Assembly (NCBI GenBank): GCA_950295325.1
Contig: OX485805.1
Span: 45,224,758 to 45,288,757 of the forward strand
Direction: 5' to 3'
DNA from: Polytrichum commune
Lineage: Eukaryota > Streptophyta > Polytrichopsida > Polytrichales > Polytrichaceae
DNA length: 64,000 bases
The notes below the pieces were generated by a model that saw only the letters and a list, made by a program, of their open reading frames with translations, ran no database searches and was not told where the DNA came from. Made by a program: the position numbers and the translations under genes. Positions 14,806 to 51,171 of the stretch are shown piece after piece; the stretch's first letter is position 1, and each line of letters begins with the position of its first letter.

Positions 14806-17800
14806 TCACATGAGATTGGGCACAAGGCCATTCCACAAACGCTGTCGATGTGGGCTTACATCCTTCAGTAGAATTTCAAGGCTATTCAACTCCAGATTTC
14901 TAGCATCTACATGGCCATTTCTGCCAGCTCCTTTTTCTCCCATATGCTGCAAGGCCATCCAACATCCACAGCGAACAGGAGTTAAATTCAAGCAAGTGCT
15001 TATCCAAAAGGAAAACCATTACAACTATGTCATGAGCATCACACATTTTTCCATAGGGTAGCACCACTTTATTCCTTGCAACCATGTGAAACTTGGAACA
15101 TTTGTCAAATTTGTATTGAAAGGCTTACCAGCGACAATACCCATAACTTGTAAGCAGCTGCAAGCTCCCGCTGCCTGCATGCATCCTCCATTAGATCTGA
15201 GGTGCTTGCAGATATACATTTATCAGCAACTTCAAGTTCTCTTACAGCTCTCTGAGAGAACTCATTCCCTCCTTCTGACAACGGCGTCGTGCTCCCACCA
15301 TCATTGGATACAATTGGCAGGGATGTTGACTGAAAGATCTTGGAGTTATGGCCAAAACCCCAAATCAAGAATCGTCGGTGGATCCAAAGAGCCTACAGGG
15401 ACATGTCATGAATCAGATGTGCATTGCCTTGTTGATATTCATCTTACCAACCACTGCTATTGCACATTCAGCTATATCTAGAGCTCAATGAAACAACCAG
15501 TAAAAGAAATGGTACCTCTCGTCCTACATATCGCTGGATCAAATCCTTATTCCAAGACAGCTCTTCCTGCGAAGTGTCTCACAACATTAGCAACATATTT
15601 GTAATCAACCATGCTACACAGATCCTTGCATATGCTACTTTCACTAGGTAGCATCAATACAATTTTCTGTAAATAGAAAAAACCTCCATATGATGCATTC
15701 TGGGACTCTAATGTATGGCCATTGTCTACATTCTGGTCCCAGAATACATCACCTACAATTAGTGGGCTATATCATGACATGGTAACATTTACTACAATTT
15801 TCAGCTTGCATTACCATCCAATTAACTTTTTTAGATAGTAAATTATCATCAATTTACACATGCGTAAGCTCTGGATGGAATTAAATGACCTACATCTTCT
15901 GTGTAAAAAGGGTTCCAAAATGACCTGCCTTCCATAATTTGGTCAAAATCTCGGGATTCTCAGACAATGCAGCAGAGAGGCTGGCCTGTGCTCTCGCAGA
16001 AGCTAAGGGAAGGTTGTTTGCAACTTTCCCATTTGCTGTTACCCCAGCTTGGAGCATCCCTAGGAGCAGACACTGCAATAATCCATATATGCAAGTTGAG
16101 TCTTTCTAGAATGCTAGGTAATACAAGAAAAAGCATAAGTGTCGTGAGAAAACTCCCTACAATAAATAATAAATCTGCTCTTGATCTCTTGTAAACTTTG
16201 CAATCAGCATTATGATATTTCTCACTGAACATGTCTGAGGGCTTTTGGAAACTATTTGAAGATGAAACCCAGAGACCAGAATCACGTCCTGAATATCCCT
16301 GGCAATATGTTCCAAGAAAGTTATTTACCAGTAAGAATAGACTGACAAGTGAACAACAGTAACCAGAAACTAACCCGCCGATAGTGGAAGCAACAGTTAT
16401 CAGCAACATGCGATTGCGCCCACCTCTTTGTGCGTTGCAACTCACCCGATACCTGCATTGATAACTCCATAGGAGCTCAGTAGGAGCTATGCATAAGGTT
16501 CAGCCTTGCATTTTCAAGATATCTTCAGTAAAATTTCAATCAAGAGGTTCATAAATCACAAGAGTGTCCAAACAAATTCCCTCAAAATCCACCTGCTTGA
16601 GACTCATGCGCGTGACAAGCCAGTAGCGATGACGCCAAGCCCGATAATTCATGGTAGACCTCTGCAACATCAAACCAAGCCACAAGTCGTACAAATAAAC
16701 TTAATCACCTTCCAATTGAAAATGTTTCCCAAGCTTCTTACAATATAAGAAATGTAAAGGGTGAGGCTGTACTCTGAGCACAGCCAACTGCAAGAATCTT
16801 AATGGTCAACTCTTCAGCTATCTTTTGACAGTCAATTATCACTTTCAGCTGTTCGAATGATATCCACACAGTAGTTAACTACTTTGATTGCATAAAGACT
16901 GTAAGCGAAAGGATGGGAATATCCTTTGCACAACTTCTTATATAGGATTGCAGTCGCAACAATCTGTCAAAGTACATTGGTGTAGAGTCTGACACACTTT
17001 CTGGAAGCCACAGGTAAATAAGAAATTCTAAGCAAATACCCCAGCAATGAGCTCCACAAGCCTTGAATCGCCCTCAAGAACCTGGTCAACAGTTTTCCAA
17101 TGAATGTTTCCAGCAATCATTCTATCAATCACCCACCGCCTGCACAAAGGTAAGACAGCACTTGCCAACCTCAGCACACAAGAAACTCCAAGCTACTTGC
17201 TTACTAACCCCAGGATGAAAAGTCCAGAATAATTAACTAAGATAAATGCTGAAGGATTGATCACTATTACTGTACTGGAAATGTACTTCGGAAACTGTGC
17301 CTGTAATTTCTTTGTGTATAAATGTTCCCAGCTAGCAACCTATCATACAGCACATCTTTGACATCATACTCTTCAATTGTCATATTTGTTGGAGGAGGAA
17401 GAGAACCTGTAAGCCCATGACTCCTCACTCTTGGGTCCATACGCTAAAACCATGCCTGCCAGCCGCAGCTCAGCAAGCAAAGATGCTTCAGAGACTTCCA
17501 TGCTTGACAGGACACGTTTTCTGCAGAACATAAATTTGGTGGTCAAGATTTGGAGAGAGGGCTGTAAACATATATGGAGGACAATGAATATTAAGCCATA
17601 TCATACCACCAAAACACAAATGTGCTAATGAGACAATAACAGATGTTCCTGCAGAACAATGAGTGATCATGACTATTTCATGTTTCAAATGGAAAATGGA
17701 AAGGGGTCTAACCTGGTATTCCAAGCGCTTGCATAATCACAGTTCACTATCACCAGCAATCTTGTGTATAGCAGAAGATTCTTTTCAAGAATCGCCTTTC

Positions 17801-19137
17801 TATCACCATCTGCCTTAGCTGAAGAATTTCCATTTCCATTTCCATTTACACGTTCGTTATCCAAACAACTACTTACTAAATTGGGGCCAGTGGATGATAG
17901 AGACAAGCCAGAACCCCTTGATTCATCTGTCCAATTGCTATATTCTTTCCGATTCCTTATGAACTCGTTCTTTGCTACTTGTAGTAGTGGAGCCAGGGCA
18001 GGCACTGCAATGGCAAGCTTGTGATGTGCACACCAAAAAGCTGACTTCTCATAAGCGAAATCAATGCGCTTCCCGTCTGGCCCCTTTGTGTAATTCTGAT
18101 TCGCAGTTGTCTCGGGAGGATCTGCCTCAACTTCTTGACCCTCGCTACGTTGAGAGCAATCCTCCGCTTGCTCAGAAGCGTCGTCTAATTCATCCTGCCT
18201 GTTAGCTTTCTTCCTTGTCTTCGTGAAAAATGGCCTTTCATTATCCAGTGTAAAGTTTTCCACGGAATGCAGGCTCTCCAGCTGAGAGGGATGAACGAAT
18301 CCCATCTCATCTCTGCAATACACAAATCATATAAGTAAGACACTTTAAAATATATAACAAGGTATGCAGCACGCCTTGAAACCAAATATTACGATATTAC
18401 CAACACTTAGGTAAGTGGGCCTTAAACAATCATTCTCTCCCCACCCACTTCTCGTAGGATACGAAACACGAAACGAGTGCAAGATGACTAGCGTGTGCGT
18501 GGCCATTCAGATTTTCGGAGCTTATATGACTAACTTAATTATTAACAAGTGTGATGGTTCCCATGCTCATTAAATGGTCATACAGCCCACCAATTATGTT
18601 GATGACCATATTCTGAGCATGTAGTCCAATCAAATTTAGACACATGTTGCCTTTTTGCTGTCCGTTCTTAGATCCACACCTACCCACACACCTCTCAATT
18701 ATAGGTGTCCACATTTCCGGGTACTGGATAAACGCTGCTCTAGCTTAACACTCTCACAGAGATCACAAATAAGTTAGATCCAGAAGCCTCAATGCTCAGA
18801 ATCAACCTCCAGAAGTCACTCCCAATCGACTAAACTCCTAACCTCTCAAAGAATCGACTCATCTCGTCTCAACGCATTTGAACCATCGATCGGATCCTAC
18901 AAGCCGCTTACAAATCAACAGAACTCAATCGCACGGCCGTGATTCATAACACTACACTGCAACGCTCCAAACCAAACCCCACGCCGAGCTGAAAACACTA
19001 AACATTGACGACGACGACAAAAACAACGGGAACGAGATAGCCATGGCGTACATGTAAGGATCGGATTCGAGGATGGCATCCAAGTCAGACACCAATCGCA
19101 ATCCCCGTGTCCAGGGATCCTCCTCCCCCTCCGCCAT
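14806..19137 (-). CDS. PTAR1: PTAR1-like protein prenyltransferase alpha-subunit repeat protein, ten exons, 548 aa
   Basis: Exons (minus): 19137-19052, 18312-17713, 17520-17407, 17139-17040, 16661-16593, 16452-16375, 16072-15929, 15566-15516, 15392-15129, 14946-14806. They total 1,647 nt in one open frame; every phase agrees. Five alpha-subunit repeats are visible: SAWNTRKR, SWAYRRW, NYRAWRHRYW, CCFHYRR and ALWIHRRF. The N-terminus has ESDPYIDEMGFVHPSQL across the exon 1/2 junction, as in PTAR1 proteins. A charged, low-complexity insert (about residues 45-95 and a GNGNGN tract) makes it longer than the roughly 400-residue animal protein. In animals PTAR1 pairs with the RabGGTase beta subunit as GGTase-III; the same partner here is inference. 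Intron 7 needs a GC donor (AAG|GCAGGT at 15928). Repeat 2 has Tyr where His is usual. Exon 10 may read through GTAAGC at about 14,856 to the stop, as modelled, or splice. Confidence 0.88.
18400..18780. repeat. Dispersed repeat inside PTAR1-like intron 1
   Basis: Two blocks recur elsewhere in the same order. The first, 'aggtaagtgggc' to 'acccacttctcgtagg' (18,408-18,460), resembles 52,770-52,835. The second, 18,566-18,770, including 'cacctacccacacacc' and 'ataggtgtcc', resembles parts of 27,265-27,770 and 53,260-53,390. No coding capacity is seen. The family is probably a decayed retroelement end or MITE. Confidence 0.5.
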
Positions 19138-32386: not shown

Positions 32387-34080
32387 TTCCAATTCACTTT
32401 CCAACATAAGAAAAGTTGTAAATGACTTTGTTTATTCACATGGTTGTAACTAATGGTAATATGATCTTGCAACATATATCATTCATAACATTCAAAAATT
32501 CCCTTTTGTTCCTTTTTTATTTCTACTTCACAATCTTGGATAACCTTCTTATCTATACAACCTAGAGAAAAGCAATACCTCCCCCTTGTCCTCTTTTACA
32601 CACACACACACACAAAAAGTATGATAATGTCTCAAATAATAACCTTTTTATACTCGCATTAATTAGTATGTGGTATGGAGAGTGCACACCCCAAGTTATA
32701 AATTGTGAGTACCAAGAGGATCAGGATGCCTAACAAGGCCAAATTTCCACATGTACATTGTCCACATGAAGGAAAGTAGAGTTTGACAATGTCAACAAAG
32801 TTATGGACATGATCTTCCAGAAGTTTCTTGGTTGAGCACTTCCATGTGAAGTAGGAAGCTAACAAGTTAAAGGAGTATGTGGGCCTTGTTGTCAAACATG
32901 CAATTTGAAATGTGGATGTCTTAGCATTTGCCACATGCATTATAACTTATGAATAATTGCATAGGGGATTGTTAGTTCAACCACATGATCGTTAAAACGA
33001 CAACGTTCAGATTGTAAGGTGTCAACTAGGCTATAACTTGTCATCCAAATTGGCCAAGTTTATCAATAACAACACGTAGCTAGTACCTTGATACTCCTTG
33101 TTTGTGCAATCAAAAATTAAATTTTGACATGTCATATCACCACACAATGTGTCTATGTGACCATTTAAACGAACTGCGTGATCAATTCAAGAATACCTTT
33201 TGCATAAAGCATAATCAATAATGTTTGCTAAGAGATACTTTTAATATATTATCCACAATGAGTACATGGTTAATACAATTCTCATTTGATTGAGTGAAAA
33301 TAGGAAACCGATGCACACTTCTTTGTTCATCAAAACTAAAAAATAAATGATATGAATACAATATTCGTGCGTCGAATGTCCCTCAAGCTCACTCTAGTTC
33401 GAGTGTTGTCCATTGTGGGATGGCATATAGAAATGGACTAATTCAAAGATGAAGCAAACACCATGGCTCACACCGGTTGCAACATCAAAATCCTTTCTTT
33501 ATTACAATTCTCATTGTCCGAACTTATAGTAGGATCCCAAACTTGCATTTGGATTCTATATCTATCTATCTATATATTCTATATATCTCTATCTATTTGG
33601 TTGCGTATGGGGGGGGGGGGTACAATTGAAGAATCAATTGCAAGAAGAAGGAACTAAAATACAACCACTACGGGGGAGCCAACGCAACCAAAGGGGAAAT
33701 CAAGAAATAATGCCCATCCGAGGCATTTGAATCCTATCTTAAACTCATCGCTCTTAAGTCTAATTCGATGCTTTGCTCACTATTCATACACCACCCCCCC
33801 CCCCCCCCCCCATACGCTCACTTGTTTTTTTGGGTATAGAACCATATTGCCATCTTCATTTTTGCCACTCATGCTATCATTGCTCACATGGTAGCCACAC
33901 CCAACACACAATAAAAGGCATCCAACAACACAAATGTTCCACCACTGTACCATTAGCCAATTTTTGAGTGCACTTTCTTTTAGATATCGATAAAAACGCA
34001 ATAGTATGGTTTTATTTTTTCCACTCAACATATTTGTATGCCCCATACATGTTAGGAAATGGCAGTTAATGCCAGTTAAT
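31561..34080. other. Non-genic DNA rich in simple repeats
   Basis: It contains an open frame at 31,707-32,099 without recognisable family, microsatellites near 32,295-32,384, and long G and C homopolymers near 33,609-33,620 and 33,794-33,811. No exon is supported. Confidence 0.3.
32295..32384. repeat. Compound (CA)n-(TA)n-(GA)n microsatellite
   Basis: A CA run (about 32,295-32,314), a TA run (about 32,316-32,331) and a 40-base GA run (32,345-32,384) lie next to each other. Confidence 0.9.
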
Positions 34081-34084
34081 GCCA

Positions 34085-34207
34085 ATAGAGACTCCGGACC
34101 TCTTTCAAGACCGGACAAAGGGCCATTGGAAAAATTCACTTTACAGTCTCCGGTCACAAACATACACTTTATTCACGCCGGCCTTGAAAGAGGTCCGGAG
34201 TCTCTAT
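34085..34207. repeat. Foldback element with perfect 25-bp inverted repeats
   Basis: Positions 34,085-34,109 and 34,183-34,207 are exact inverse complements; both contain AGAGACTCCGGACCTCTTTC or its complement. The pairing extends a further five bases with one mismatch. The 73-bp spacer is non-coding. A related, more diverged GC-rich motif (accggagtctct-like) recurs near 34,583-34,620. Confidence 0.8.
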
Positions 34208-34750
34208 CTATCTAGCTTTGGAATTTTGGGAATCCCAAAATGTGAAATTACACAACACTATAAAATGTACAGCCTCGTGGCATTTAGCCGGTCATGTGCA
34301 CAATAAGGCCGCACTAATTAGTACTAGTTTAATTATGTTGAATAAGTGTGTCAGTACTTAATGGTGAATGGTTGGCAATAATCACAAATGATTATAATAG
34401 ATATATTATACAATAAAGTCAAATTGGGCAAGTTTGATTCTCATGTTTAATTTCTAAGACACGAGTGAATTAGATGCCTTTTTGAATACATCCAAATGTA
34501 TGGGCACATGAACACATTCTTATTTGAGGGTAGTTTCAACCCTTCATGCATTATTTGAAATTGTTGGAATTCTGGACATGATAGAAGAAGAATTCCGGTC
34601 TCTAAAGGAGGCCGGAGTGAATAGAGTGTCTGTTCGTAAAACATCTTTGGCCAAGTCCTAAGGACATACATTATGGACATGCATAACACGCGTGATTTGT
34701 TTGAAGTCAAGCTGATTGTGTCCAATAATCTTTTGCATGTACATGTGCAA

Positions 34751-35139
34751 CACTAAATAGTGTATTTAATCTCGTGTGGTATTTCATGTCATTGTGGTAA
34801 CTTTTCTAATGACACATTGTATGAATAGGCTTACGAGTACTGTCAATCCAACTTACTTTTAGTTCGTCCAAATGCCAATAATTGAAAACAAGTTTGGTAT
34901 ATTTAGCACCCCTAACAGTTCTATGATGAAATTTTGTCATGAGTTGAAAGTTAGATATCAAATCACATAGTAAGTGACAACAATTGCAACATTGTAAATC
35001 TATAATGCCAAAATAAGGTTACAAAGGATGACAAATAATGTAAGGTTACATCTAGTGTGGGTGACACTAGATGGGCGGTTTACAATTTGGTATTGACCAC
35101 GACAAATAGAATTGATGGCACTATATACAATATTTAGTG
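34751..35139. mobile_element. CACTA-ended non-autonomous element
   Basis: The left end is CACTAAATAGTGTATTTAAT. The right end, 'actatatacaatatttagtg', is its inverse with four mismatches in 20. The interior is 389 bp overall and shares several blocks with 23,205-23,573. It has no coding capacity. CACTA superfamily membership is inferred from the termini only; no clean 3-bp target duplication is seen. Confidence 0.5.
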
Positions 35140-35377
35140 TAGTTGTTAATTGAAACACATGTTTCATCCATTCTAAGGGAGTTTGTTTATGTACAAAATC
35201 TTCCTAGTCTTGTTCTACAAGTTTTGAATAAAAAATCCTAAAAACAATTCACCAATTGGGAAATCAATTAATGTACACCTCATATGACCCACATGTAAGG
35301 TATGAGAGGTTGGGTTTGAGATGCAAATAAGTTTGACCCACCCTTGTCATCCCTTGTTTCATAGATGATTGTCATTA

Positions 35378-35942
35378 GGGTCAGTTTACATCATAGACCA
35401 TGAAGTCGGACCATGGAAGATGGCATGTTTCCATGGTCTGACTTCATGATCCAACTTCCATGGTCCGATTTCTTAAAAAATCAACGACCAAAGCCTTTAG
35501 GCCCCTCACTAGGTGTAAATTGAATGTGGACCAAGAGGAATGACCATGCACCAAAAAGTGAACATGCTAATTTTTTTAATATATTCCAAAAAGGGCAATT
35601 TTGAAAAAAAAATCAAACTTTACCAATCTTTTGTCTTCTTTTGTCTTCATCTTCTTTTTCCCATAAAGAAATTCATTCTAATTTTATTATAATCATAGTA
35701 TTTTGCCATGGGCCTCTTTTGCCAAAGCACCTCTTTTGCTTCTCCCACTGTAAAACCCATTGGGCCATGTCAGTGCATAATGTAGGCTTTAAAATATGTT
35801 TGTAGGAGACCTCGAACTTCATTGTCACCTTGACATTTTTTCCTTGGTGTAAAGCGAAATGATCCTAGAACGAGTTCAACAACCAATCACAAATTTTATA
35901 GGGCCTTGGGATAACTTCATGGTCCATGGTGTAAACAACCCC
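35378..35942. mobile_element. Tourist/PIF-like MITE with TTA target duplication
   Basis: TTA at 35,375-35,377 and TTA at 35,943-35,945 flank ends that are inverse to each other: GGGTCAGTTTACATCATAGA on the left and 'ccatggtgtaaacaacccc' on the right. An additional internal palindrome around 35,388-35,475 alternates 'gaccatggaa' and 'ttccatggtc'. GGG-starting ends with TTA duplications are typical of PIF/Harbinger-derived Tourist MITEs. Confidence 0.65.
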
Positions 35943-36711
35943 TTAGTTGCCTTGATAATGGATTGTCATATACAAATAATGATATTTACATACACTATCC
36001 ACCTTTTCCACACATTTCCATGTTTTGGGTTCCACCGGTTTTGTGCATTTCACCATTCAAACATACACGATCTATCTAGGAATCTCGTGGCAACAACATC
36101 ACAAACCCTAAATTTGTATTTTCTACACCCATGCACCATCACTAAAGTTCACATCAACCAATCTTGAGACACATCAAACACATCTTTGTGATAGATTGTA
36201 ACAAGTGAATATGATCAATGCAAAATTTGTACCACTTTATTAGTATTCGAAGGCATACTTGAAAATATTCTCGATGGCCGATCAGGTAAATCATCATGCA
36301 AACAAAAAAAAAAAAAAAAAACTTGGTTAGGTCATCTATATATGCAACCGCATTCAAGAATTCTCAAATCAATGAATACCTCTATTTTTTTAACCTACAC
36401 ACATGTTAGGGATTGCACTTGCCATCAACATGCTTCAAAGAAGATGTTTACATAAATACAAGTGAGAAATTAATGTCGTAGTCATCTTCATAAATCATCG
36501 AAGCAAATCTTGTTAATCATGCTTCCTATGATCGATGACTTGATTGCGTTGTTAATCACAAAGTTCGCATTTGATTATTATTCATGATTTTTGTATTGGA
36601 TTTGAGTGTGCCTCTTGAAGAATGACAAACATCAATTGAATATTAGTATTATACATATTTTTTGATTGTAGAGAAGGTCATATACCTATGTTGATGACGC
36701 GGTGATTACAG

Positions 36712-39700
36712 GACAAAACCGATTATTCCGTTCCGAAGGTAGTCCCTGTTCCAAAAATTGTTCCTGTTGAAGTTGAGGATGCTGTTAGTAAGCTTTTGCA
36801 AGGCATCGACTCGTGGTCATTTGATATCTTCCAAATCGAGGACGATGATCTACCCAAGGCAAATCATTTTGATTGAAGCAATATTTGAGCATGATTTAAT
36901 ACATCTTGAAGTCAATATTGGTATGTATTCCCGATGCATAATATAGGTGTGGTGGATGATGGAATTGTGAATGGATAATAAATGAATTGTGAGGATTTTT
37001 ATATTGTTGCAGATGGCAGAAAAAATATTTAGGATCTTGGGTGTGTTTGATAATTTTCCAATTGACATGAAGAAATTTCGAGCATTTGTTCGCTCAGTAA
37101 GTGCATTTGTTCCTTAAACCACAAGGTTTGTGGATTTTGGTGCACTTTTGTGCACTCATGAATGTGTTGCAAATTGATGTTCTCCACAAAAATGCATTGT
37201 GTGTGCACATAGTAAATTGCGTCAACCTTTTGACCATATTCTTAAGGCTTGGATTCCTTTCATGTGCAGATGGTCGCTCGATACCAACCAAATCCATACC
37301 ATAATTTCCGGCATGCTTGCGATGTGCTTCATGCAACGTAAGATTTTCATTGCATCTCTTCCATCATGTATTATATGATTAAGAACCTACATTAATTGTC
37401 TACAACAAGTTTGTCAAAGTAAATCTTCGCATATGTGTTTACAAGACAAAAATCAAAGTAGACAAGCCTAAAACAATAACTTTGAACACATGTAGGGATT
37501 CTCGAACAAGGTAGAAATTGCATGAGCACATGGGCAAAGTCAAATGAGAATATGACCATTGAGCTTTAAAAGAAATCAAGTGAAGATGGATATCTTTTGA
37601 ACTCTCAAGGTGTTGCTCATAGATGTCCTTGAACAACTTCTTTTGGGTACACGCATGCAAACTTGAATATGTATACAAACGTTAGATAGTGATGAGGATT
37701 TAAACATGTCTATCTCAATCATAACCCAGTACTCATTCCCATTTTTCATCCATGTACAACCCCTCCAAACATTGTAGCTCTACAATGATCGAGGATGGTC
37801 ACCAGTCAAGCCTTCTCTTGAACCCCAAAGATTCCCTACATGAGAACTACATTTTGAGATTTGGTATAACAATCCATGAATTGACATGGGTATTCTTTCA
37901 ACAATACCAATATAAATGATATAACGTTCTAAATGTGTATGATTAATGCTATGATTTATGATGTGTAGGTATTTGATGCTCACCCTCACAGAGGGTGCAC
38001 AAAGGTTGAACAAGTTGGAGATATTTGCGCTTGCTCTTGCCGCATTGTGCCATGATGTGGATCATCCTGGTTTGACAAATGCATTTCTAGTAGCTGCAAG
38101 TGACCCGATTGCCCTTCGATACAATGATAAAGCAGTTCTGGAAAGTCATCATTCGGCGACAACCTTTCTAACAATGCGGGTTAGTAGGTATCTTTTACTT
38201 TCCCTGTTATATCCTAGGAAGAACCAAAAAACATCCACTAGCATGAACAAATAACTTAGTCCACGTTAGAGTTTCAACTATCATGTTGATAACTTTTTAG
38301 ATTATTCAACAAAATTTGCTAGATTGTTAGGTAATTTATTTGTACTTGTTGTATGTGATTGTAGTGGGTGTTCAAGTGCAACAATTGTGCAATAAATGGA
38401 AATTGTTGACACGAGCATATTATTATTCAACGAACAAAGGTTGTTTATGGGTTTGGTACATTTGGCCTCAACCAAGTGCATTGGGATTTGTATATGCTTG
38501 TTTTTTCAAGCTGAATTTGAACTCATTTCCCAAAAAAAATCATAAATATATGATAGAGTTAGAGATTGAGTAATATTATGAACATTCAATCTAGTCTCTG
38601 ATAATAATAAAAGAGAACAAAGGAGAGCAGTTCGATGCTTCTTTTCTAGAATTCAAGCACATGAGATCCATACTTGATTGGAGAGTCCACTAATTGAGAA
38701 ACAAACTTGAGAAAACTTCTAAGCACTAGTGGATTGGAGTATCGGTGCTTTGCGTGGAGCTCACAAAATTTTGACATCCCATATACTTGTGGTTGATATA
38801 GGGACATGACACGGTCAATATAATGGCATCATTAGATGAACCTCATCAACGTCATTTACGAAAACTTGTGATATCATGCATCCTTGCCACTGACATGGGT
38901 CTTCATGCGGAGATCCTTGGCAACTTCACCACAAGACTAGTTGATCCTCGGCCTTTTGAGATGTCAGGTCCATACCAATCACCGGGTCCAAATATACCTG
39001 ATACAATTGATGTAGGTGTTGTGGGGAATGGAATTGAAGGTGGACAAGATAACAATTCTTCAAGTCAATACCTTGGGAATTTTGGGGAAGCAAAGAATGA
39101 CGGGTCACTAAATATGGCTAGGAAGGCCCTGCCAAAAAGCGGCCCACCTTTGAGTAGTAGTGGTGACGTGGTGTTGTTCCTACAAATGATCATCAAATGT
39201 GCAGACTTGAGCAATGTGATCAAACCATTCTTTTTGTCAAAACGGTGGTCTGCGTTGCTATGTTTGGAGTGGTTTCGACAAGGGGACATAGAAAAGGAGC
39301 TTGGCATGAATATTTCAAAGTTTATGGATAGGGAAGACCCAACAACCCTTATGTTCGTTACACTCCACCTTGGTTATCGCCTCAAATGAAAATAATATGT
39401 AAATTCTCAACAACCCATACAATCAATCATAATATATATGTTTAGATTTTCATACAAAAGAAATATGTTTTGGATTGTCAATATCCAATCAAGATGAAAT
39501 ATTATTGGTTTGGGTTGTCTATGAATCGACCCAAGAAACATGTCACAAAGAAGGAAAATGCTTGATGTTGGAGGACGATACTTCTCAAGTCACTCAAACA
39601 TCTTGGCTTGAAAGTTTGTCCCCTCATTCTCCCCTCACTATTGTCACGAGTATTTCATAACATTACTCTATATTCAACTTTTGTGTTGTAGGCCCACATG

Positions 39701-40596
39701 ATATAACAATGGGTTGCTCAAAAAGTTGTGCAGGGAGACTCATATTCATATTGAGTTCTCAACATCCCATTGTTATATTTTGAGGGCTCATATCACTAAG
39801 TAATGTTATGTTATAGCGCCTCCATATTTCAATTGTTTGATTTGAAAATCCCCATTTCCAACTTGATGTAAAGCTTTAAAAACATGCATAAGATGTTTCA
39901 ACAACTTCAACTTTATCAATGGACTGTAGGGACAAGGCCAATTGATGTTGGAATTTGTGGTTTGAGATGTGGATATTCACTTAATATCATATAGAATACG
40001 AAACTTGGCTAGTCCTCCATGGATTGTGCAATTTGGTGTTGGTGAGCGATGAGTGTGGGACACTTTTGGGGTTTAAAAGCAATGCTAGCTTGTATTACAC
40101 AAATGTATGTTGATTTGAATATAAATCATTGTAGCTTGGCAAACTCAAAGATTGACGAATACCTAAATGATTTCATTGATCAATATAAACTATTATATTT
40201 TGATTGCTTAATTACATAAGCATAGTGACATTGACCATGAGTATTTCCAATTTCGTCTACACTCACTTGCTAAAGAGGTGATGAGGTTGTCAAGTAGTAG
40301 TGTAATGATAACCTTTCAATGTTCATTTGTGTATTCAACACGTCACAAGTGATGTTAGTGCATCTACAAGTAATTATAAATGTTGATTGTGGTTTGTTCA
40401 ATTTTGTAGGGCTATGACATGCGGATGCATTGATTTTGTCGCAAAACCAATGTACGAAGCTACCTCACTTTTCCTTCCACGACTAAATGATGAAGCTCTT
40501 GCGAATCTTACTTTGAATCGCAGCTTGTGGAACACTTTTAGCACAAGTGGACGCCGAGCCTCAGAGGCAATTTATCTTTCAAATAAGTTCAAATAA
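36712..40596 (+). CDS. Class I cyclic-nucleotide phosphodiesterase domain (N-terminal part of a PDE-cyclase)
   Basis: Exons: 36712-36858, 37013-37096, 37270-37337, 37969-38179, 38802-39352, 40410-40546 (or on to a stop at 40,594-40,596). Phases agree. The first exon has [12 protein letters not shown], a usual PDE catalytic-domain entry. [11 protein letters not shown] carries the general-acid His. [12 protein letters not shown] fits the HD(x)2H(x)4N signature. [20 protein letters not shown] and KCADLSNV (metal-binding Asp) follow, then [12 protein letters not shown] and FMDR. So all metal ligands are present. The final exon gives [14 protein letters not shown], where the purine-clamp Gln and Phe of other PDEs are replaced. 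The first intron needs a GC donor (AAG|GCAAAT). The first exon starts mid-protein, so 5' exons are missing. Product: hydrolysis of cAMP or cGMP to 5'-NMP, cytosolic. It is fused to, or adjacent to, the cyclase at 41,411 onward; the last exon can splice on at 40,547 or stop. Confidence 0.85.
37338..37968. other. PDE intron without other features
   Basis: This GT-AG intron (donor GTAAGA, acceptor TGTAG) separates the HNFRHACDV exon from the HDVDH exon. I see no nested gene or repeat. Confidence 0.5.
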
Positions 40597-41410
40597 TGTT
40601 GAGGATGTATAGAAATAAAACCTATAACATAACCGAGCCGCTTGAGAGGGTTCATGGGCCAGAGAATAAAAAAATAAATATGCTAGAATAATTTGTATGT
40701 ATATTCTTGGGCTCTCATATTCAATGTCGAATTTGGGATGCACAGTGCAACACCTTATTGACATGGGAGCTTTTAAGGTTAAATTTGGCTATCTCTACAA
40801 GGTTAAAAAGGGAACCTCTACAAACGGCTTTGTAATGCTATGATCTTGGAGTCTTAATATTATTGTTTAAGAAAAGCTCAACCACACACAACTTGAGTTT
40901 CATGGGTCGAGGTAAAAACACTTAGACTCTTACACTTGCCTAATATGGTGTAGATTTGGTTCCTCATGTTCTTAGGTCGGTTCTCAGAGTTGAGGCCCAA
41001 ACTTGAAATTGTAGCCATCAAACTCCAAAGCTCTACAAGTTCAACTCATATAGTGATACTTGATAATCAAACTAATAGCAAATAAGAGCCAACACCATGA
41101 CGAAGGTCCATCGTCTAAAACACATGTAAAGGTTTAGATTCTTGTGACACTTGTTGAAGTATGTTTGGGGGGACACAACAAGATGTTTGCTCAAACTCTA
41201 CACGGTAAGGGCTTGAGTGTCCATTTATATATATGCAACTTTTGAAGATGGAAGTCCTATGGGGTTCTTCAACATAAAAAGGTGCTACCATCAATATTTT
41301 ACAACCGTAGCGCAATCATAACAATGCAACATGTGCGAACTAAATATTGTCAAGTCTTAGAGTGGTAGTTGGGTGACAACTAACATCACACATGTATCTA
41401 ATATTGGCAG

Positions 41411-44400
41411 GTTGCAAAAATCATTTTAGGTCCATTTTTCCCGCCTCCCCTTTCAATTGACCGAATTCCAAGTAATTTTTCCGAAGCTCCCATCAAACTT
41501 GAAGGAAAACTCTTCGCCCCAACCCTAAGTGAATATGGAGCACAATCGGATCCTCGTCAACGACCGCTCGAAAGCCCACGCTTGCTTTCCGAAACCTATG
41601 CACATCGAGCAAGTGTGAAGCCTCTATTATATATGGGCGATAACCGACACCCCACACTCATGGCCCCGCTCCCGATTGGGGAACGAAGGGTTTCGAGCCC
41701 TAAAACATCCTCCATCAAGGAAAGTCTTGAAAGCTTAGTAAACTTTCGGCGTGGGTCAAGCCCACCCGTGATCTTGAATGGTGGGAATGGCAAAGAATTA
41801 GGGCCCTTTTTACGAGTCGGATCCATATATGATAAAAGTCCCTCTGACAAGTTGCTTATGGATGACAAGAAAACGGACAACTTAATGTATAACAAAGGCC
41901 CCTCCACTATTGCCTTACCTCGCCGTGGCTCAGCAATGAAAATATTGACGACCGCTGACATACCCATGTCGTCTCCGTTCAAGTTGACCGGGCTTGCATC
42001 TGTGCGGGACCCGAAAACGGCTCCAATTCTGAAGCGAAACTATGGGTTTTGGGAAACGATTCGACGTCATCCGACTGGAAGGAAAATTAACAAAGTGTTG
42101 GACACAACAATATGGGTGTCGATTAATATTCTCGCGACGTTCATAGGGTTGTTTGCGGATGACTTTGTGAAGTCGTTTTTCCCAAAACAAGTATGATAAT
42201 GTGTTTTTCTTTTTTATGTGATTTGAAGGTTTATGTGTGTGTACAATCTTGACATATAGACAAAGGCAAATATGTGTCATGATGAGGCATATTTCATTCA
42301 CATCAAGCAAGTTTGGTTGGCGTCATCTCTCTATATACAAATTATCTTAGAAATGAAAATATTTATTCATAATCCATAAACTATTTAAGGTATTCTAAAT
42401 GTCTAGATTAACGTAGCTTGACTCTTGGGTAACAATATATTACAAGAACCTTATCATATGCTTGATTTCAATTATGAATAGCAACTCATTTGTTTTTCAT
42501 CCACTGTCTACATTGACGATACGTTTCACAACTTTGTTCTTGGATGGTCCTCAAAATGTTCATTGTCAAAACAATGTAAAATTTTCTAGTGTGCTCATGT
42601 ACTAATGTTAATAATCCACTTATACAACGTGACATTCAATGAGGGTACGTTATTGCCATTTCCGCTTCCTCGCGCGGTCTACAATGATGTTAAGATTAAA
42701 TTATTAATTGTGTCTCTAATAAAAAATGATCTGAATAATATTATGAGCGTGCATTACATTATGATTAGTGTTATGTCTTCCACAGTTCATTAATGAATAA
42801 AAATTCTTACACCATGTGTCAAAAAATTCATGCAGGCCGATATATTTGAACTACATTTTCTTATTGCATGCATGGTTGTGTTCATATTTGAACAACTTGC
42901 GTTATCAGCTCTTCGACAAAATTATTTTTTCGGATTTTTCTTCTGGTAGTAACATAACAAGTAGTTTGTTTTTTTCTTTCTTTTTCTCAATTGCTTTCAT
43001 ATTCAAACAAATCCCCACCATTACCATCACGGGTTTGGAAAACACATTACTTTAACTCCAAAACCATTTCATTTTGTATTTCGTCATGTAAAGTGCAAGC
43101 GTAGAGCTTTCACGTAATTTTTCCATGTATACTTTTTCTTTCTTTCAATATTCACGTATTTTGAAAACGTTTGTTGGTATAAATGTGAGAGTGTTTTTTG
43201 TGATGGGAACGGGTATGTGCAGGCTTGATTTGATTGGGAACCTGTCACTTGTGGCTCTCATCACCAACATTTATCAACAGAACCTTGTGATTGCAAGAAC
43301 TGGAAGAGCAGCTAAATTGGTGACTAGATTGAGCAAATTAATGCAAGCTTCGCATTTCTCAAATTGCTTTCCACTCAGTCAACTAATGAGGGTACGAATC
43401 TCCATAAAATTGTGTTCAAGACAATATATTTTCATATGAAAGTTCAAGCATGTGTGTGTGTGTTCAAGACAATATATTTTCATATGAAAACTCAAGCATG
43501 TGTGTGTGTTCAAGACAATGTATTTTCATATGAGAACTCAAGCATGTGTGTGTGTTCAAGACAATGTATTTTCATATGAAAATTCAAGCATGTTTTCATA
43601 TGAAAACTCAAGCATGTGTGTGTGTTCAAGACAATGTATTTTTATATGAAAATTCAAGCATGTTTTCATATGAAAACTCAAGCATGTGTGTGTGTGTGTG
43701 TGTGAGCGCCCCCCATGAATGTTAAAAAATATCAAATAGCAAGTGTTAATGAGAGCAAGAGGCATAGTGATGTATAGATGTTAACGACATGGCTAGAATA
43801 GTTGGGGTGGGGGGCATAGTAGGTATTGTACATATGTAGGACCATGTTGATCAAGAAAGGATGAATTCAACACTAGGAGTTGTTATTGTGATATTTGTTT
43901 AGTAAACTACAGTAAACACGTGATTTGGTGCGGTCCACACTATTCATCGTCGACCGTCATAGATTGTCTGGCAATCTCTGGGTGGCAACTAGAGAGGGTG
44001 TCACGTGACACTTGGTGCTACGTGACAAATCATCAGTAGCATTTTTATTTAACATGGCACACCAATCATATTGTCATACTAAATCAAATGTTTAGTTTTT
44101 TCTAGTTATTTCATTGCTTCTTGCATGGCTTTGCCTGATCCATGGAACAAAATACTACACAACCTTTATCACTTCAACTATTTAAAAGCGAATGAATATG
44201 TAATTCCTATGTTTAGATTTGAAAACCAAAATTCCCATATTAATATTTGAGATTTTGAAAATACAAAGTTCAAAATTTTTGGTGTTTTCTTTAAATAGTT
44301 TAATTAGTGCTGAAGTGATAAAGGTACTATTGTAGTCACCGATCTTGGAACTTCCATGGACACAATGTGCACAAAGCCAAGGGAACCTAAAGAAAAGTGA

Positions 44401-47400
44401 AAGAGAGAAAGAGGAGAGGTGAGAAGAGGAAGGAAAGGAAGGGTGAGAAAACACTCCACAACAAGTAGAATAATTTGTTGGCTCTGTCTGTAGGACAGAG
44501 ACTATGCATCAACTTCTTCGTTTCAAGAGCAAATTTCCTAACCACTTTGTGTTCACACTTGGACGTTACTTGTTTTTGTTATTGTTGGTCCACTTTATGT
44601 AATGTGGATGTTAACTAAAATTATATATATGTATATATATAACACTATAATTGCTTCCTAAAATGCATTGAAAGAAATCTAGTTAACTATAGTTATTTCG
44701 TCAGTTCTTGATTATGTATTCTAAAAATTTTGGGTAATAAATGGGTAGCTTCAATTCTTGACCTGCATTTGAGAAGAAGGTGCACAAAATCCAAGAAAAG
44801 TTTGGTATAGTAAATAGCCATGGATTGGCATGAGCAAAGTGAACAACTATAATTGTAGTCTTTCATAGTAAAGGACAGAGCCTCACGGTTCTACTGTTTT
44901 CTTGTTGACATTGTGATTACTGGAACTTGAAGCTGAGCGACCCTTGTTCTCCATCAATCAATCAATCGATAACCAATGTTAGACAATCTGACGTGAATTT
45001 GAACCCGATGGCTTTACCTAGCTCGATCAATGTTCTTTGCTACAGCTCATCCGACACAAGAACTCGATTCAAGACGACGACGAGGAGGACGAGAAGGAGT
45101 TCATGCGGGAGGGCATGTTGTCGGTGACCGGAAAGCCGAGCCAAGTGTGGACGCGGCTCTCGGAGCTCACGACGCAAAAGCTCATCATCGGGCTCCTCGT
45201 GTTCATCGTGTTGACGCCGTTCTTGCGTGTGGTGACCACCGACTTGGGTCCCATGGTGTCGTTGAACATGCTCGACGAAGCTCCCGTGTGCACTTTGCAA
45301 TTCAATGTCTCGTTGGGGAAGCTCTTGGACCTCAACACGAGGCACAACTATGAGCTCGTGTATTTGGGGGTGAAGGGCGGGTGTTGCCCGACACGCAACT
45401 ACTCCAACGACGTCGTGTGCTCGGTGAACGACTTGAAGAGCCTCTACACACAAATCCTCCCGGACCCTAGAAAAGCATCCGATGCGTTACAAGACGTGCA
45501 AAGAGACTACCGGACCATGGAACTCAAGGTCGTGATGAGTGACACGAATCAATCGGAGGGCTATTATTCCATCCGCACTCAAACGCAAGCGTCTCACCGA
45601 ATGAACGTGAGCCACCACTTTCAATTCAACTTCGTGAAGGCATGGGGGTTCATGGCATTTTCTATAGGATTTTGTTATTAAGTGACTCATGTAGTGGTTG
45701 AGCTTGAGTGGAACCTGAAAATTATCACCAAAGGGAACTCGTGAGGTACCATTGAACACGTCCGTAGGGCTAAACACCCACCCATAACGTGATCTTGAAA
45801 TCACCACTCAGTCTGCTAAAATGTCACTTATTATTTGAGCAATCTATAAGATATAGTGGACAATCATTCTTCAAAACCGATGAACAACCTTTAGGAGGCG
45901 AGAGGCAAATTCAATTGCTACATTGGGCCCCAAGTTGCTAGACAATACATAGTCTTACCAAGATCTGATCCTCTGAAGTTGAGGATCCCATTTAGGGACA
46001 TTTGATTGATACGAATCTTTCAGATGGATGCTGCAAAAATCAAAACTCCACTCCAAACATGAACACCCTAAAATCTTGCACAATGAATACATACGGATTG
46101 TGGAATGTCGACAACCTTAACACCATGTGATCCCATGATGTTGGTTTTGGACCATATACCAACAAAAGTTTGAACCATTGTAGCTTTTTTTCATACAAAA
46201 CATTCAAACATAAGGCAGACCTCGTAAAGTGACTCCAAAACCGCTTCACGTTCAACACTTCATTGCGTGGCATGTACCTTAAGCTTGTTGATGCGTTTTC
46301 ATGAACTTGTTTGGTAACACGTGATTCTAAATTCGATGCTTGTGAATCAGATGGTGTGGACGATTATTATGCTCTTTGTTCTAGGTGCATGGTCATTCTT
46401 TCTAAGCCGCGACTCCAATCAACTGTTAATCCAGGCAAGTAAAAAAAAATAAAAATCCCATTTCCCAGTCAGTTTCGCAAACATTCGAGTGCTCGAATCT
46501 TGAGCGGCGTGTCCAAATTTGGCAAGTTTGGAGACCAATCACTGATGCGTTTTGGCAAGTTGCGCATGAATATAGGAGTCTATTATTATTTTTTCCTTAG
46601 AAAACAACATTTTAAATATACAATTATGTGAAAGTTTTTTCAAATTTTCATTATAGAGTGCATTTGAATATGTGAACCATATGGCCAGACCCAAGGGTCC
46701 CATCGGTCCCTGGTTCTTGCGTAAGCTCTCCGATTCTTTCTACGAAGGCGGCAATTGACTGCTCGCATCATGAACTATGTGGGGACATTCATATCAAATT
46801 TTTGCAATGTTGACATTCAAATCAAATTAGTCATTTTTAGGGGTATCATGCTCATTTTTTGGATGGATTTTTGGAGAAATAAGTAAGAACAATTTTTTTA
46901 TATTAAAGTTATTAAAAGGAAAACTTAGCTGAGAGAAAGAGAGATTCAATAATACGCTGCGAGATGCAGTAATGACTTCTAGCCAACATCTACATGTTTA
47001 AGTTAAAGGTTATGTTGCAACATAAACACTCCAACAAAATAAATAATTAATGACGTTTTGAGACAGAGTCTATGTGGGGCCCCGGGACCCGCCATGAGGT
47101 TCATATGGGAATTGCTTAAAGTGACGGGAATGGATGAAGTTACCTTACTCTATGAGTCGATCTTATTCTTCCATTGTCGCGAATTTGATGAGGTTTCATG
47201 TTGATTTTACATGTGGCTCACAGCCAATTGAACGCATGGTAGATTTCGTAAAAGAGTTAGCCGAAGACCCGGTGTCGTTTGCAGGGAAAGCTTTGACACA
47301 GCCGGTTGCTCCTTCTGTTGGACGGGTAATTTTTTATCCAACGTTTTTATTTTTGGTCTTGGCATTTAAAAGTAAGCCTACGCATGTACACAAGGTTGGG

Positions 47401-50400
47401 AATTGCAACCCTATGTTTGGTAAGCATTGATTCAATGTTTGTGATTAAGTATGACTATATTAGGGCTAGTTCACATGGGATCCCAAGTCCCACTCACGTT
47501 AGCAAGTCCCCAACTTTTGAACCTCAAAACCATTAGAATATAGTTAAGTATTAGTAAAATTGGATCTTGATTACTTTATACAATAGTATTTGCGGGACTT
47601 GGGATTGAGAGTTGGGTCTAGCTTTTTGCTCGACCTAACCCTCAACACAAGTCCTAAGCCTCACCTCCAGAAAGTGTGGCCATGTAGACATCCATGTCAT
47701 AGTTGGGGGGGACTTACGACTTGGGTCCCCCCTGTGTGAACTAGTAAGTCTCAGCTTCCATGCTTCTCAACGGTTGAGATTGCACGGATCAACTTCAAGT
47801 GACTTGAAACTTAGAAGTTGGGACCCCTGTGTGAATTGGTAAGTCCCAACTTCCATGCTCCTCAATAGTTGAGATTGCACGGATTGACCTCAAGTGACTT
47901 GGGACTTAGGACTCGGGACCCGTGTGAACCGGCCCTTAATGCGAAATCGGTGTTGATGATGCTTGAACTCCGAGGCTAGTGAACATTTTTGGGTTGACAT
48001 TTGGGTTTCGCAACATGTGAGTTACCGAATCGTTTTCATGGTCTTCATTATATCCTTGGTGCATCCAAATTTTCGTGCTATAATGCCAACATTGCGAGGG
48101 TTTTGATCGACGAGGCTGCAGGTTATGGAAACAAGGATGGTCGAAGCCGCGTTAGTGAAAATTGCGAGCTTGACGAAAGTGGGCCTTGGAGATGCAGGCA
48201 TGGACATTTTATCTGCGAATCTGAAAGGAGCCGAATTCAATCGTAAGTTTGCTACCACGAATGTTGGGCCGGTGTATATTAGGTAAAAGAGCATGGGATC
48301 ATTTAATCAACATCAATAATGGTATCAAAGCACCTATCAAATTTGTAATACGAGTCAATTTATTTGGGTTTTGGTGGGTATTTCAAGGTGTGAGAGACTC
48401 TTTGTATACCTGAATTGTTATTTGGGTCAACACCATTAAACCATATTGATATTACGGCAATTTTACCTCGGTATGAAGGTTTCCTGCATGGTGTATAGAC
48501 TCGAATGGTATCGAAAACAAAAATATTCTCAAATACCCGTACCTTACTGGTGTCAAAAAAAAAGTGAAATCCTCATTACACATTCCGAAATTGTTTAAAA
48601 CATAATACGCTATCGGTGCAACACTGGTTGCTTGTTTTTCATCTTCATGAAATGTCCAAGGAAGGGGTATAGAGCTCTAAGCTAGGATGTATACACAAAA
48701 AAAGAACCGCTCCGCTTAATTGTTCTCTTGACATATGCAGATGTGTAACTTGCAGATATACTGCAAACATAGAAATGAATGTAGACATTAAGCTTGATTG
48801 AAAGTGTTAGACAAGATATTGGGTTCTGGATTTTTTTTTTTCCTCTGTCAGACAACTTGGCATTTAATCCAAAAAGCCTGAATGATGGACTATAATCTAT
48901 ATTCTTGAACGTAGGTAGCTTAGTGTTGGAGATGTTGTTGAAACAGCTATGATTCCCGGGAAGATGATACGCGCGTGCTTTGGGTTCTGTGATATCCGAA
49001 ACTTCACCGATGCCACCGAGTGTTTGCAAGAAGACGTGATGATGTTTGTCAACAAGATTGCGGATGTGGTGCATAATAAAGTGGTGGCGCACCAAGGATT
49101 CCCAAATAAAAACATCGGAGATGCGTTTCTACTTGTGTGGAAGAAGAGCGTATCCGATAATGTCAACAAGGTGTGACTTTTGTGCCTATTATAGATATAT
49201 GTTGTTGTATAATGTAAGTATCTCTAATAGAGTCCACTATCATAAGGTGGCAGTAGTCCGCAGGCGAAGAGACTCTTCACTCACAGTGGCCTCCATTCGA
49301 GGTTGGCGTATCTCTCTATCTATCAATCTAAGTATTCCTAATAGGTATGTTACTTTCAAACACTGTTAGGGTGAGGACTCAAATAGGACATTTTCTCTCA
49401 GTTTATAAGGTATGTGGGTGTTATTGAGTTACTTTTCTTAATCAGACATCTATATTTGATCGGTGTGTGGTTCAATGAGGAACAAAGAACAAACGCCATA
49501 TAGACGCATGTTTATAAGCTTCAAATTTTATCATCTACTTCACACCCAATAGTGAACCCTGAAATTGCGACGACCAATTTCGTCAATACTATTGTTACAG
49601 GAACGATTGAAACCTTGTCAGTTTGTGCATAACCGATTTCTACTTTGTGTGCTATAGGCAAGAGGCAGATCATTTGCTGACCGTGCAATTCAATCGTTTC
49701 TTGACATAATTCAATGCATCGAAACATCCCACACCTTGGCTGAATATGCCATGCATCCTGCGATTCAAAGGCGTATGCCTGGTAAGATGGGAAACATTAC
49801 AGATTTCTAACAGATTTCTAACAGATCTACAGATTTGATTATTGGGCAAAATATGGCCAACTTGCTATCAACCTACGGTATCACCTTGTGTTGGAGGGTT
49901 CTGTGATATTCATGGGGGAAGCATACTGACATGATTGATATGATTCTTACATGTAACAATGCACTAGGAGTGGAGCATAATATTGCATAATGGATTGGTA
50001 CCGGTGCATTCCATGCAATAGAATGCATTTGCACACCTCGGTGAACCTGGAGTGTTGCATGATGTAGACTCTTGTGAGGACATTTGTTGATTGGGATTGA
50101 ATTCCTGAAAAAATCAACTATAAATCCCTGGATGTTGCCAACAATATTTTTGCTTTCATAGATGGACTAAAAACTTTGATTTCGTGGTTTCAACAAAAAC
50201 AATTTGACAACTATCTACACAGCTGTGAATGATCACTATTAAACCCACATCACACATCTATGATGTTGGCCAAAATCTTCACAAGCTTCATAAACTCAAG
50301 TTCAAGAGAATTGGTTGCATGAGGTATGATCCTTTGCCGCGGCGATTGCCAGGTTACAAGATCCACATGTAGACTCTTGTGGGGACATTTGTTGATTTGG

Positions 50401-51171
50401 GTTTGAGTTCTTGAGAAACCAACTATCAACCCCTGAATGTAGCCAACAATGCTTTCTCTTTTCACAGAATTGATTAAGAACTTTAATTTCTCGATTACAA
50501 AAAACATGTCAGCTGTCTATGAAGTTGGGAATGATCACTACCAAATCACATCCACGTAGCTGTAATGCTAAAAAAACAAATGATCCTCCATGAGCTTCAT
50601 AATTCGAGGTCAAGAACGTCGGATGACTAATGCTTGATCAATTGCCGCGGCAATTGCAGGTTACAAGATCCACATGGGCTTCGGCCTGCACGTCGGGTGG
50701 GCGATCGAGGGCGCGATCGGCTCCTCCCACAAAGTGGACCCCTCGTACCTCTCGCCGCACGTGAACATGGCCTCCCGGCTCGAAGCCGCGACGAAGCAAT
50801 ACGGTGTGATGATGCTCATCTCGGAGACGGTGATCGCGCAGCTCACCAAGAGCAGCCTGCGTGACTCGTGCCGCAAGCTCGACCGCATCACGGTGAAAGG
50901 GAGCGCGGAGCCGTTCATCATCTACACGTTCGACATGCCGTTGTTCCAACAAGAGTTGAAGGGCCACCCGGCCGATTACCGCGACATGTTTGAGAGCGCC
51001 GTCGACAATTACATCGAGGGCGATTGGGCGAGCTCGTTGGACAAGTTGGAGGAGTGTTTGCAATTGTGGCCCACCGATAAGCCCGCGCAAGTCATCCTCA
51101 ATTTCATGGCGTCGCATAACTACCGCGTGCCTCTCAATTGGCAAGGCTATCGAGAGCTCACAGAGAAGTAA
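41411..51171 (+). CDS. Membrane class III adenylyl/guanylyl cyclase with voltage-sensor-like segment
   Basis: Exons: 41411(or 41430)-42190, 42836-42945, 43223-43391, 45046-45606, 46351-46434, 47224-47325, 48122-48242, 48932-49170, 49658-49781, 50660-51171. All phases match and end at TAA. In order: a linker with three RRxS sites; four hydrophobic segments with an S4-like RTGRAAKLVTRLSKL; an acidic DDDEEDEKE stretch; SELTTQKLIIGLL opening a transmembrane helix; an extracytoplasmic domain with CC and several Asn sites; a second helix (MLFVLGAWSFF) followed by PIERMVDFVKELAEDP. The catalytic domain has GFCDIRNFTD (metal Asp), NKNIGDAF (purine Lys, second metal Asp), and HVNMASRLE (transition-state Asn and Arg). 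The C-terminal GDWASSLDKLEE and GYRELTEK match protist and algal membrane cyclases. Lys favours ATP, hence cAMP. A GC donor ends exon 46434. The order PDE-TM-cyclase matches the CAPE type known from liverwort, though symbol use would be premature. Confidence 0.88.
41684..41932 (+). other. Linker with three RRxS kinase-consensus sites
   Basis: The predicted cytosolic linker before the first membrane segment holds RRVS (41,684-41,695), RRGS (41,747-41,758) and RRGS (41,921-41,932), the basophilic consensus of cAMP- or cGMP-dependent kinases. A fourth, RRAS at 40,552-40,563, lies at the end of the PDE exon and is kept only if that exon is not spliced at 40,547. The sites suggest feedback phosphorylation; whether they are used is unknown. 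Confidence 0.55.
42065..43391 (+). other. Voltage-sensor-like four-helix membrane domain (exon-split)
   Basis: Over three exons the cyclase encodes four hydrophobic stretches. S1-like is TTIWVSINILATFIGLFADD. S2-like is LHFLIACMVVFIFEQLALSA. S3-like is FFWLDLIGNLSLVALI with an internal Asp. S4-like is ARTGRAAKLVTRLSKLMQ with basic residues spaced R-x2-R-x2-K-x3-R-x2-K. No pore loop or S5-S6 pair follows directly. This resembles the voltage-sensor-like part of many algal and protist membrane cyclases; sensing itself is inferred. Confidence 0.6.
43392..43715. repeat. Intronic minisatellite, units of about 54-60 bp
   Basis: Immediately after the donor at 43,392 the block 'ttcaagacaatgtattttca' plus 'tatgaaaactcaagcatgtg' plus a variable (TG)n is repeated about five times, some units missing the first half. 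Each unit contains the self-complementary 'ttcatatgaa'. It ends in a (GT)n run near 43,685-43,704. The continuous open frames across it are repeat artefacts. Confidence 0.85.
43716..45045. other. Long cyclase intron, no nested gene seen
   Basis: AT-rich intron sequence between the S4-like exon and the membrane/extracytoplasmic exon. A purine-rich stretch near 44,395-44,450 and a TATATA tract near 44,622-44,641 are present; no exon is supported. Acceptor TACAG precedes the GC-rich exon. Confidence 0.4.
46351..46434 (+). other. Second transmembrane-helix exon with GC-AG donor
   Basis: This 28-codon exon encodes MVWTIIMLFVLGAWSFF and joins in frame to the PIERM juxtamembrane exon at 47,224. The donor is CAG|GCAAGT, the standard strong form of the rare GC-AG intron class; no GT donor preserves the frame. 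Confidence 0.75.
47463..47935. mobile_element. Tourist/PIF-like MITE inside a cyclase intron, TTA target duplication
   Basis: TTA at 47,460-47,462 and at 47,936-47,938 flank inverse ends (GGGCTAGTTCACATGGGATC on the left, 'gggacccgtgtgaaccggccc' on the right). Inside, a block of about 90 bp containing 'ttgagattgcacggat' and 'aagtgacttg' is tandemly duplicated (47,735-47,825 and 47,826-47,925). Confidence 0.75.
48296..48610. repeat. Dispersed repeat, intronic copy 2 (partner at 1,527-1,830)
   Basis: See the copy at 1,527: same orientation, shared start 'atcaacatcaataatggt'. This copy lies in the intron between the METRMVE exon and the first catalytic exon of the cyclase. Confidence 0.6.
50063..50680 (+). 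repeat. Tandem duplication covering a 3' splice site of the cyclase
   Basis: About 305 bp ending in 'ggttacaagatccacatg' is present twice (about 50,064-50,368 and 50,369-50,677). The second copy supplies the real acceptor (CAG at 50,657-50,659) and start of the last coding exon. The first copy keeps an intact acceptor (CAG at 50,349-50,351) and the same first six codons, then TAG in frame at 50,369-50,371. Confidence 0.85.

Follow-up and report, generated by a model that had tools for sequence, protein, structure and literature searches.

A probable CAPE orthologue in Polytrichum commune, joining a class I phosphodiesterase to a membrane-anchored class III cyclase

A 64,000-nt window of Polytrichum commune contig OX485805.1 was analyzed, and all coordinates below are positions in this window. 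At 36712-51171 on the + strand it holds a 16-exon gene that we assign, from sequence comparison and with a probability of about 0.92, to CAPE (COMBINED AC with PDE: adenylyl cyclase with phosphodiesterase) as the orthologue in a land plant whose sperm swim. We predict a single spliced transcript, whose product has a class I PDE and a class III adenylyl cyclase, both cytosolic, with a membrane part between them; this protein is most likely an ordinary CAPE and not one of a new kind. The joined model has about 1,338 residues, with the PDE in exons 1-6 and the membrane-anchored cyclase in exons 7-16. CAPE is described from liverwort, moss, hornwort, lycophyte, fern, cycad and ginkgo, and is tied in these accounts to streptophytes with motile sperm (PMC5159850, PMC8115329); it is reported absent from Mesostigma. 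Its described features also include expression in spermatogenous cells, activity of both enzymes, and a cyclase that falls with other CAPE cyclases in trees. The assignment of orthology was based on domains, catalytic motifs, a Gln-to-Thr change, agreement with primer peptides and residue spacing, rather than on a tree.

When the joined PDE exons were compared with Pfam, PDEase_I matched with an expect value (E) of 6.5e-73 over residues 87-381 of the PDE query, a weaker HD-CE match falling below its cut-off, and the motifs HNFRH, HDVDH and KCADLSN were all present. The joined second half matched Guanylate_cyc at E 2.2e-10. Both enzymes lie on the + strand with compatible intron phases, as a preliminary description made from the sequence alone had stated. 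Alignment of the cyclase with photoactivated cyclase chains matched both metal Asp residues and a Lys, an Asn and an Arg, whose roles we take to be catalytic. The corresponding list in the CAPE paper comprises eight residues. At the purine-binding Gln position of the PDE, alignment to Protein Data Bank (PDB) chains placed a Thr (MTCGCIDF); at the same position, Thr is reported for MpCAPE (the Marchantia protein), GbCAPE and AaCAPE, and Asn for the cycad and Cryptomeria proteins (PMC8115329). The best PDB chains for the PDE were two labelled only Phosphodiesterase, followed by PDE4D and PDE9A with similar scores, and a PDE nearest the PDE9 family is a described feature of CAPE (PMC5159850, PMC8115329). 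A search of bacterial and archaeal genomes with the last exon gave two class III cyclases, at 34% identity and with different N-terminal parts; a viral scan with the same exon gave no confirmed match.

For comparison with published CAPEs, the 20 primers printed in PMC5159850 and PMC8115329 were translated, scored in the best of three frames and set against 200 shuffled proteins. Eleven matched the model well (0-7 of 200 shuffles as good). Seven of these, MpCAPE-r, MpEX-f, MpD2A-f, MpPDE-EX-f, Aar, Cjf1 and Cjr, were identical or one residue off, with 0-3 shuffles as good; the others were Crf (2), Crr (2), AcF (6) and PMp-r (7). Note that eleven primers are not eleven separate sites, since three cover the C-terminus and two the LPKM junction. 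Identical peptides were QPIERM, GFCDIRN, ELTEK*, YRELTEK*, GYRELTEK* and HACDVL, while QGINSW, LPKMVE, PKMVER, FMASHR and EEEQRH differed by one or two residues; with its frame fixed, EEEQRH was equalled by 3 of 300 shuffled proteins. Spacing was also retained. The distances from Q101 to H199, H203 and H259 of the PDE (MpCAPE numbering) are 98, 102 and 158 residues in both proteins, D1340 lies 270 residues from the end (1610) in MpCAPE and its counterpart 270 in the model, and Q1251 to D1340 spans 89 residues in MpCAPE and 90 in the model. Together with the PDE-membrane-cyclase order and the Thr substitution, which are likewise shared with CAPE, these agreements uphold the preliminary description in calling the protein a CAPE relative. 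The CAPE-like AC/PDE proteins of Saprolegnia and its relatives also carry a class III cyclase and a class I PDE in one chain, but both of their domains are placed apart from those of plant CAPEs in published trees (PMC8115329).

Exon borders were set by visual inspection of open frames and splice signals and then checked by script; the reading frame is restored at every junction. The features of the model are as follows (a slash marks an exon border).

36274-36285, + strand: tentative first coding exon (MADQ, phase 0), suggested by the top donor score among 88 ATG-to-phase-0-GT candidates in 33700-36700
36712-36858, + strand: exon 1, start of the PDE domain (QGIDSW), with a GC donor; junction LPK/MAE resembles LPKMVE (CrCAPE-f) and PKMVER (AcCAPE-F)
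37013-37096, + strand: exon 2, PDE (gene model, Pfam match)
37270-37337, + strand: exon 3, PDE (HNFRH); HACDVL is identical to the CjCAPE-f1 peptide
37969-38179, + strand: exon 4, PDE (HDVDH; gene model, family search)
38802-39352, + strand: exon 5, PDE (KCADLSN), which includes a long insert; the donor, TAT/GTTCGT, is the weakest of those scored
40410-40566, + strand: exon 6, end of the PDE, Thr for the purine-binding Gln (MTCGCIDF), with a GC donor (model, alignment, splice scoring)
40594-40596, + strand: in-frame stop if intron 40567-41410 is retained (possible PDE-only isoform), with AATAAA at 40614, 40665 and 40673
41411-42190, + strand: exon 7, linker (VAKIILGPF...) followed by membrane helix 1 (model, hydropathy, splice scoring, peptide match)
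42836-42945, + strand: exon 8, membrane helix 2 and the beginning of helix 3 (model, hydropathy)
43223-43391, + strand: exon 9, the larger part of membrane helix 3, then the basic S4-like segment (R732, R735, K738, R742, K745; model, hydropathy)
45046-45606, + strand: exon 10, acidic linker, next membrane helix and a domain of about 127 residues with 4 Cys and 3 N-glycosylation sequons (model, hydropathy)
46351-46434, + strand: exon 11, last membrane helix, GC donor CAG/GCAAGT (model, hydropathy)
47224-47325, + strand: exon 12, PIERMV linker; QPIERM, encoded across the junction with exon 11, matches MpCAPE exactly from residue 1251
48122-48242, + strand: exon 13, linker ahead of the cyclase (model)
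48947-49170, + strand: exon 14, cyclase core (GFCDIRN, NKNIGDAF; model, PDB-chain alignment, primer peptides)
49658-49781, + strand: exon 15, cyclase core (model, Pfam match)
50660-51171, + strand: exon 16, cyclase core (VNMASRLEA), C-terminus GYRELTEK and stop at 51169-51171 (model, PDB-chain alignment, primer peptides)

GC takes the place of GT at the donor in 3 of the 15 introns that separate exons 1-16 (after 36858, 40566 and 46434). GC-AG introns usually make up about 1% in plants, a proportion that three in fifteen exceeds. Published peptides span two of these three junctions: LPKMVE (Cycas) and PKMVER (Adiantum) correspond to LPK/MAE, and QPIERM (Marchantia) to Q/PIERM. The start of AaCAPE, read from its primer as MANFDED, found its best match elsewhere in the model, at chance level (58 of 200 shuffles as good). 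Exons 45046-45606 and 50660-51171 are G+C-rich (0.55 and 0.59; neighbouring exons of the gene 0.33-0.51), and tandem repeats with units of 24-70 bp occupy 43411-43695, within the intron between exons 9 and 10.

The join between the PDE and the cyclase was scored over 39 in-frame donor-acceptor pairs, with a small scoring matrix derived from the gene's other 14 introns. The best pair was the GC donor at 40566 with the acceptor at 41411 (phase 0, 8.3 bits). A different join, from 40546 to 41430 in phase 1, had been put forward in the preliminary description; it exists, yet it fell outside the top ten, of which the tenth scored 2.3 bits, and its use would also delete the IILGPF motif. Exon 7 is open for 74 codons upstream of its first in-frame ATG (41633), as was 1 of 950 overlapping intron stretches of equal length, and the codon score of these codons was 7.5 (mean −19.2 and maximum 13.3 for the overlapping intron stretches). 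With 74 open codons preceding the ATG, exon 7 probably has no ATG start of its own and requires an upstream coding exon. In the published MpCAPE cDNA, QILGPF comes directly after the PDE; it is the peptide encoded by the primer with which the PDE construct was closed at residue 479 (PMC5159850, PMC8115329). This primer, MpPDE-EX-r, was first scored over three frames, with its best match elsewhere, and was rescored post hoc as QILGPF with the frame fixed by the stop codon. Its counterpart is IILGPF, residues 414-419 of the model, which was equalled or bettered in 4 of 300 shuffled proteins and lies 385 residues after the QGIDSW glutamine (378 for the MpCAPE equivalent). Since QILGPF adjoins the PDE in MpCAPE and its counterpart opens the first cyclase-side exon, the two halves are tied together; this match to published cDNA is the strongest evidence for one gene. 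The in-frame join, the lack of an exon 7 ATG before 41633 and the QILGPF match all point indirectly to both enzymes being in one polypeptide, predicted to be made from a single transcript.

Several observations weigh against this assignment. Two primers were intermediate (MpPDE-EX-r, 12 of 200 shuffles as good; Cjf2, 19 of 200) and seven, MpCAPE-f, Aaf, CbR, CbF, AcR, Gbr and Gbf, were at chance level (58-113 of 200), some of which may correspond to sequence that is untranslated or little conserved. For the exon 5 donor the score is only −1.0 bits. Another frame of the 74-codon stretch of exon 7 has a higher codon score, 14.0, though it contains 3 stops. The intron that joins the enzymes combines a GC donor with an in-frame stop, followed by the three AATAAA motifs within 80 bases, whereas the first AATAAA or ATTAAA after the cyclase stop comes 577 bases on, at 51748. 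The stop at 40596 is as given in the preliminary description.

Because of this stop, its AATAAA motifs and the distant motif after the cyclase, a PDE-only product may exist. One gene would then yield two products, the full CAPE and a soluble PDE translated from transcripts retaining intron 40567-41410. This possibility, which is compatible with our assignment, has a precedent in the several MpCAPE transcripts that are registered and ascribed to alternative splicing (PMC8115329), but AATAAA is frequent in A+T-rich sequence, and we consider a second product unlikely. Two adjacent genes on the same strand, the first for a soluble PDE and closing at 40596, the second for a membrane cyclase with a start of its own further on, could draw on the same stop and motifs and on the in-frame ATG at 41633, but are highly improbable given the 74 open codons with a positive codon score ahead of that ATG, the QILGPF peptide beside the PDE in MpCAPE cDNA with its counterpart in the first cyclase exon, and the CAPE-type Gln-to-Thr change in the PDE.

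In the single CAPE polypeptide that we favor, the PDE and the cyclase should face the same side of the membrane, and an even number of crossings follows from the need of both enzymes for cytosolic nucleotides. Seven segments passed the hydropathy cut. Five lie between the enzymes (639-657, 678-696, 702-720, 809-827 and 951-969); the other two fall within the PDE, which is expected to be soluble, so that the scale overcalls. An S4-like segment, with a basic residue at about every third position, separates the third of the five from the fourth. Counted as a helix, this segment may bring the number to six, and six crossings would put the 127-residue stretch of exon 10 outside. The cyclase would act as a homodimer, and we infer specificity for cyclic AMP (cAMP), this topology and expression in sperm. 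AlphaFold was run on exon 10 alone; the mean pLDDT was 44.4, and the model was not used.

The membrane part had been described beforehand as an extra, voltage-sensor-like module. The label "voltage-sensor-like" goes back to the basic pattern, and two sequence tests lent it no support: Ion_trans had no match at E up to 10 (HMMER filters drop most matches above 0.1), and local alignment with the S3-S4 region of potassium channels from the same genome was no better than with shuffles (306 and 1530 of 2000). Since short, diverged helices are hard to detect, these failures leave room for a voltage sensor. As for the module being extra, published CAPEs have 1240, 1252 and 1259 residues (PMC8115329) or 1610 (MpCAPE), with two membrane helices predicted in MpCAPE and four in the Cr, Gb and Aa proteins (PMC5159850, PMC8115329). 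The model exceeds the CAPEs of ginkgo, cycad and hornwort by 79-98 residues (its start being tentative), and by the simple scale it has more hydropathic segments than any of these accounts give. From QILGPF/IILGPF to QPIERM, however, it spans 559 residues against 772 in MpCAPE, about 213 fewer as judged from primer residue numbers, and we saw no sign of an addition. That this CAPE relative gained a voltage-sensor module absent from other CAPEs is very unlikely: its five hydropathic segments and one basic segment come from a scale that also flags the PDE and are not comparable with published counts, its middle part is shorter than that of MpCAPE, its total of about 1338 falls inside 1240-1610, and neither Ion_trans nor channel S3-S4 matched.

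We also entertain, as a tentative idea with the odds against it, that the membrane part, here and throughout the CAPE family, descends from voltage-sensor cyclases of flagellated protists, with four S1-S4-like helices and an external sensing domain. On that view CAPE would be a cAMP switch of plant sperm controlled by membrane potential or a ligand, the PDE having been fused later. As described, CAPE cyclases are closely related to those of algae, alveolates and stramenopiles (PMC8115329), and voltage-sensor cyclases occur among these groups (PMC10651576, PMC12223298). Those of Plasmodium, Paramecium and Tetrahymena (Weber 2004, as cited in PMC10651576) and PPTG_13136 of Phytophthora (PMC12223298) resemble the model in having membrane helices and an S4-like basic segment before a class III cyclase, and they too belong to organisms with flagellated or ciliated cells. 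They differ in that PPTG_13136 has an Ion_trans domain by Pfam (PMC12223298), which was not matched in the model, and in that the Plasmodium, Paramecium and Tetrahymena proteins have a K+ channel pore (PMC10651576), which was not found in it; the descriptions consulted mention no PDE. The main text of PMC5159850 and of PMC8115329 never uses the word "voltage", and such an origin is not proposed in the titles or abstract openings among the literature matches listed.

The genome searched comprised 407.8 Mb in 64 contigs. PDEase_I matched the CAPE-like gene only, the membrane-part query matched this locus only, and the cyclase query found the locus and one match at E 3.75, so the gene is apparently single-copy as judged by these searches; because they were made exon by exon, absence elsewhere in the genome is not proven. 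The Guanylate_cyc family search missed the gene's own cyclase exons, which makes absence in that search weak, and it found another place, C3:1892984-1893235, that was not listed by the CAPE cyclase query and is perhaps the counterpart of the Marchantia non-CAPE cyclase-like gene Mp7g08500. Genome-wide family matches numbered 42 for Dirigent, 58 for light-harvesting proteins and 13 for dynein heavy chain, a set that would suit a land plant, perhaps a bryophyte, whose sperm are flagellated. Dirigent and dynein heavy chain genes together suggest motile sperm in a land plant, in which a CAPE is to be expected. For one light-harvesting protein the best PDB relative was the 620-residue chain 9vfj, and the best single-domain relatives were 8htu and 7xqp, presumably moss structures. 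At least 14 light-harvesting matches of equal score lie within 95 kb on both strands (C5:1751760-1846160). Elsewhere in the window, ten other open frames gave no Pfam match over the cut-off and an Rfam scan reached no gathering score; the long open frames at 15963-16499 and 17688-18326, both on the − strand, may be coding and matched no Pfam family at E 0.1.

As a probable CAPE orthologue, the gene adds another plant to the known pattern in which CAPE, a membrane protein that both makes and destroys cAMP, is linked to swimming sperm. It also provides a CAPE gene structure in full; among its introns are GC-AG ones, which could escape gene finders and lead them to split or truncate the gene. Should the membrane part prove to be a voltage sensor, cAMP in plant sperm would be under electrical control.

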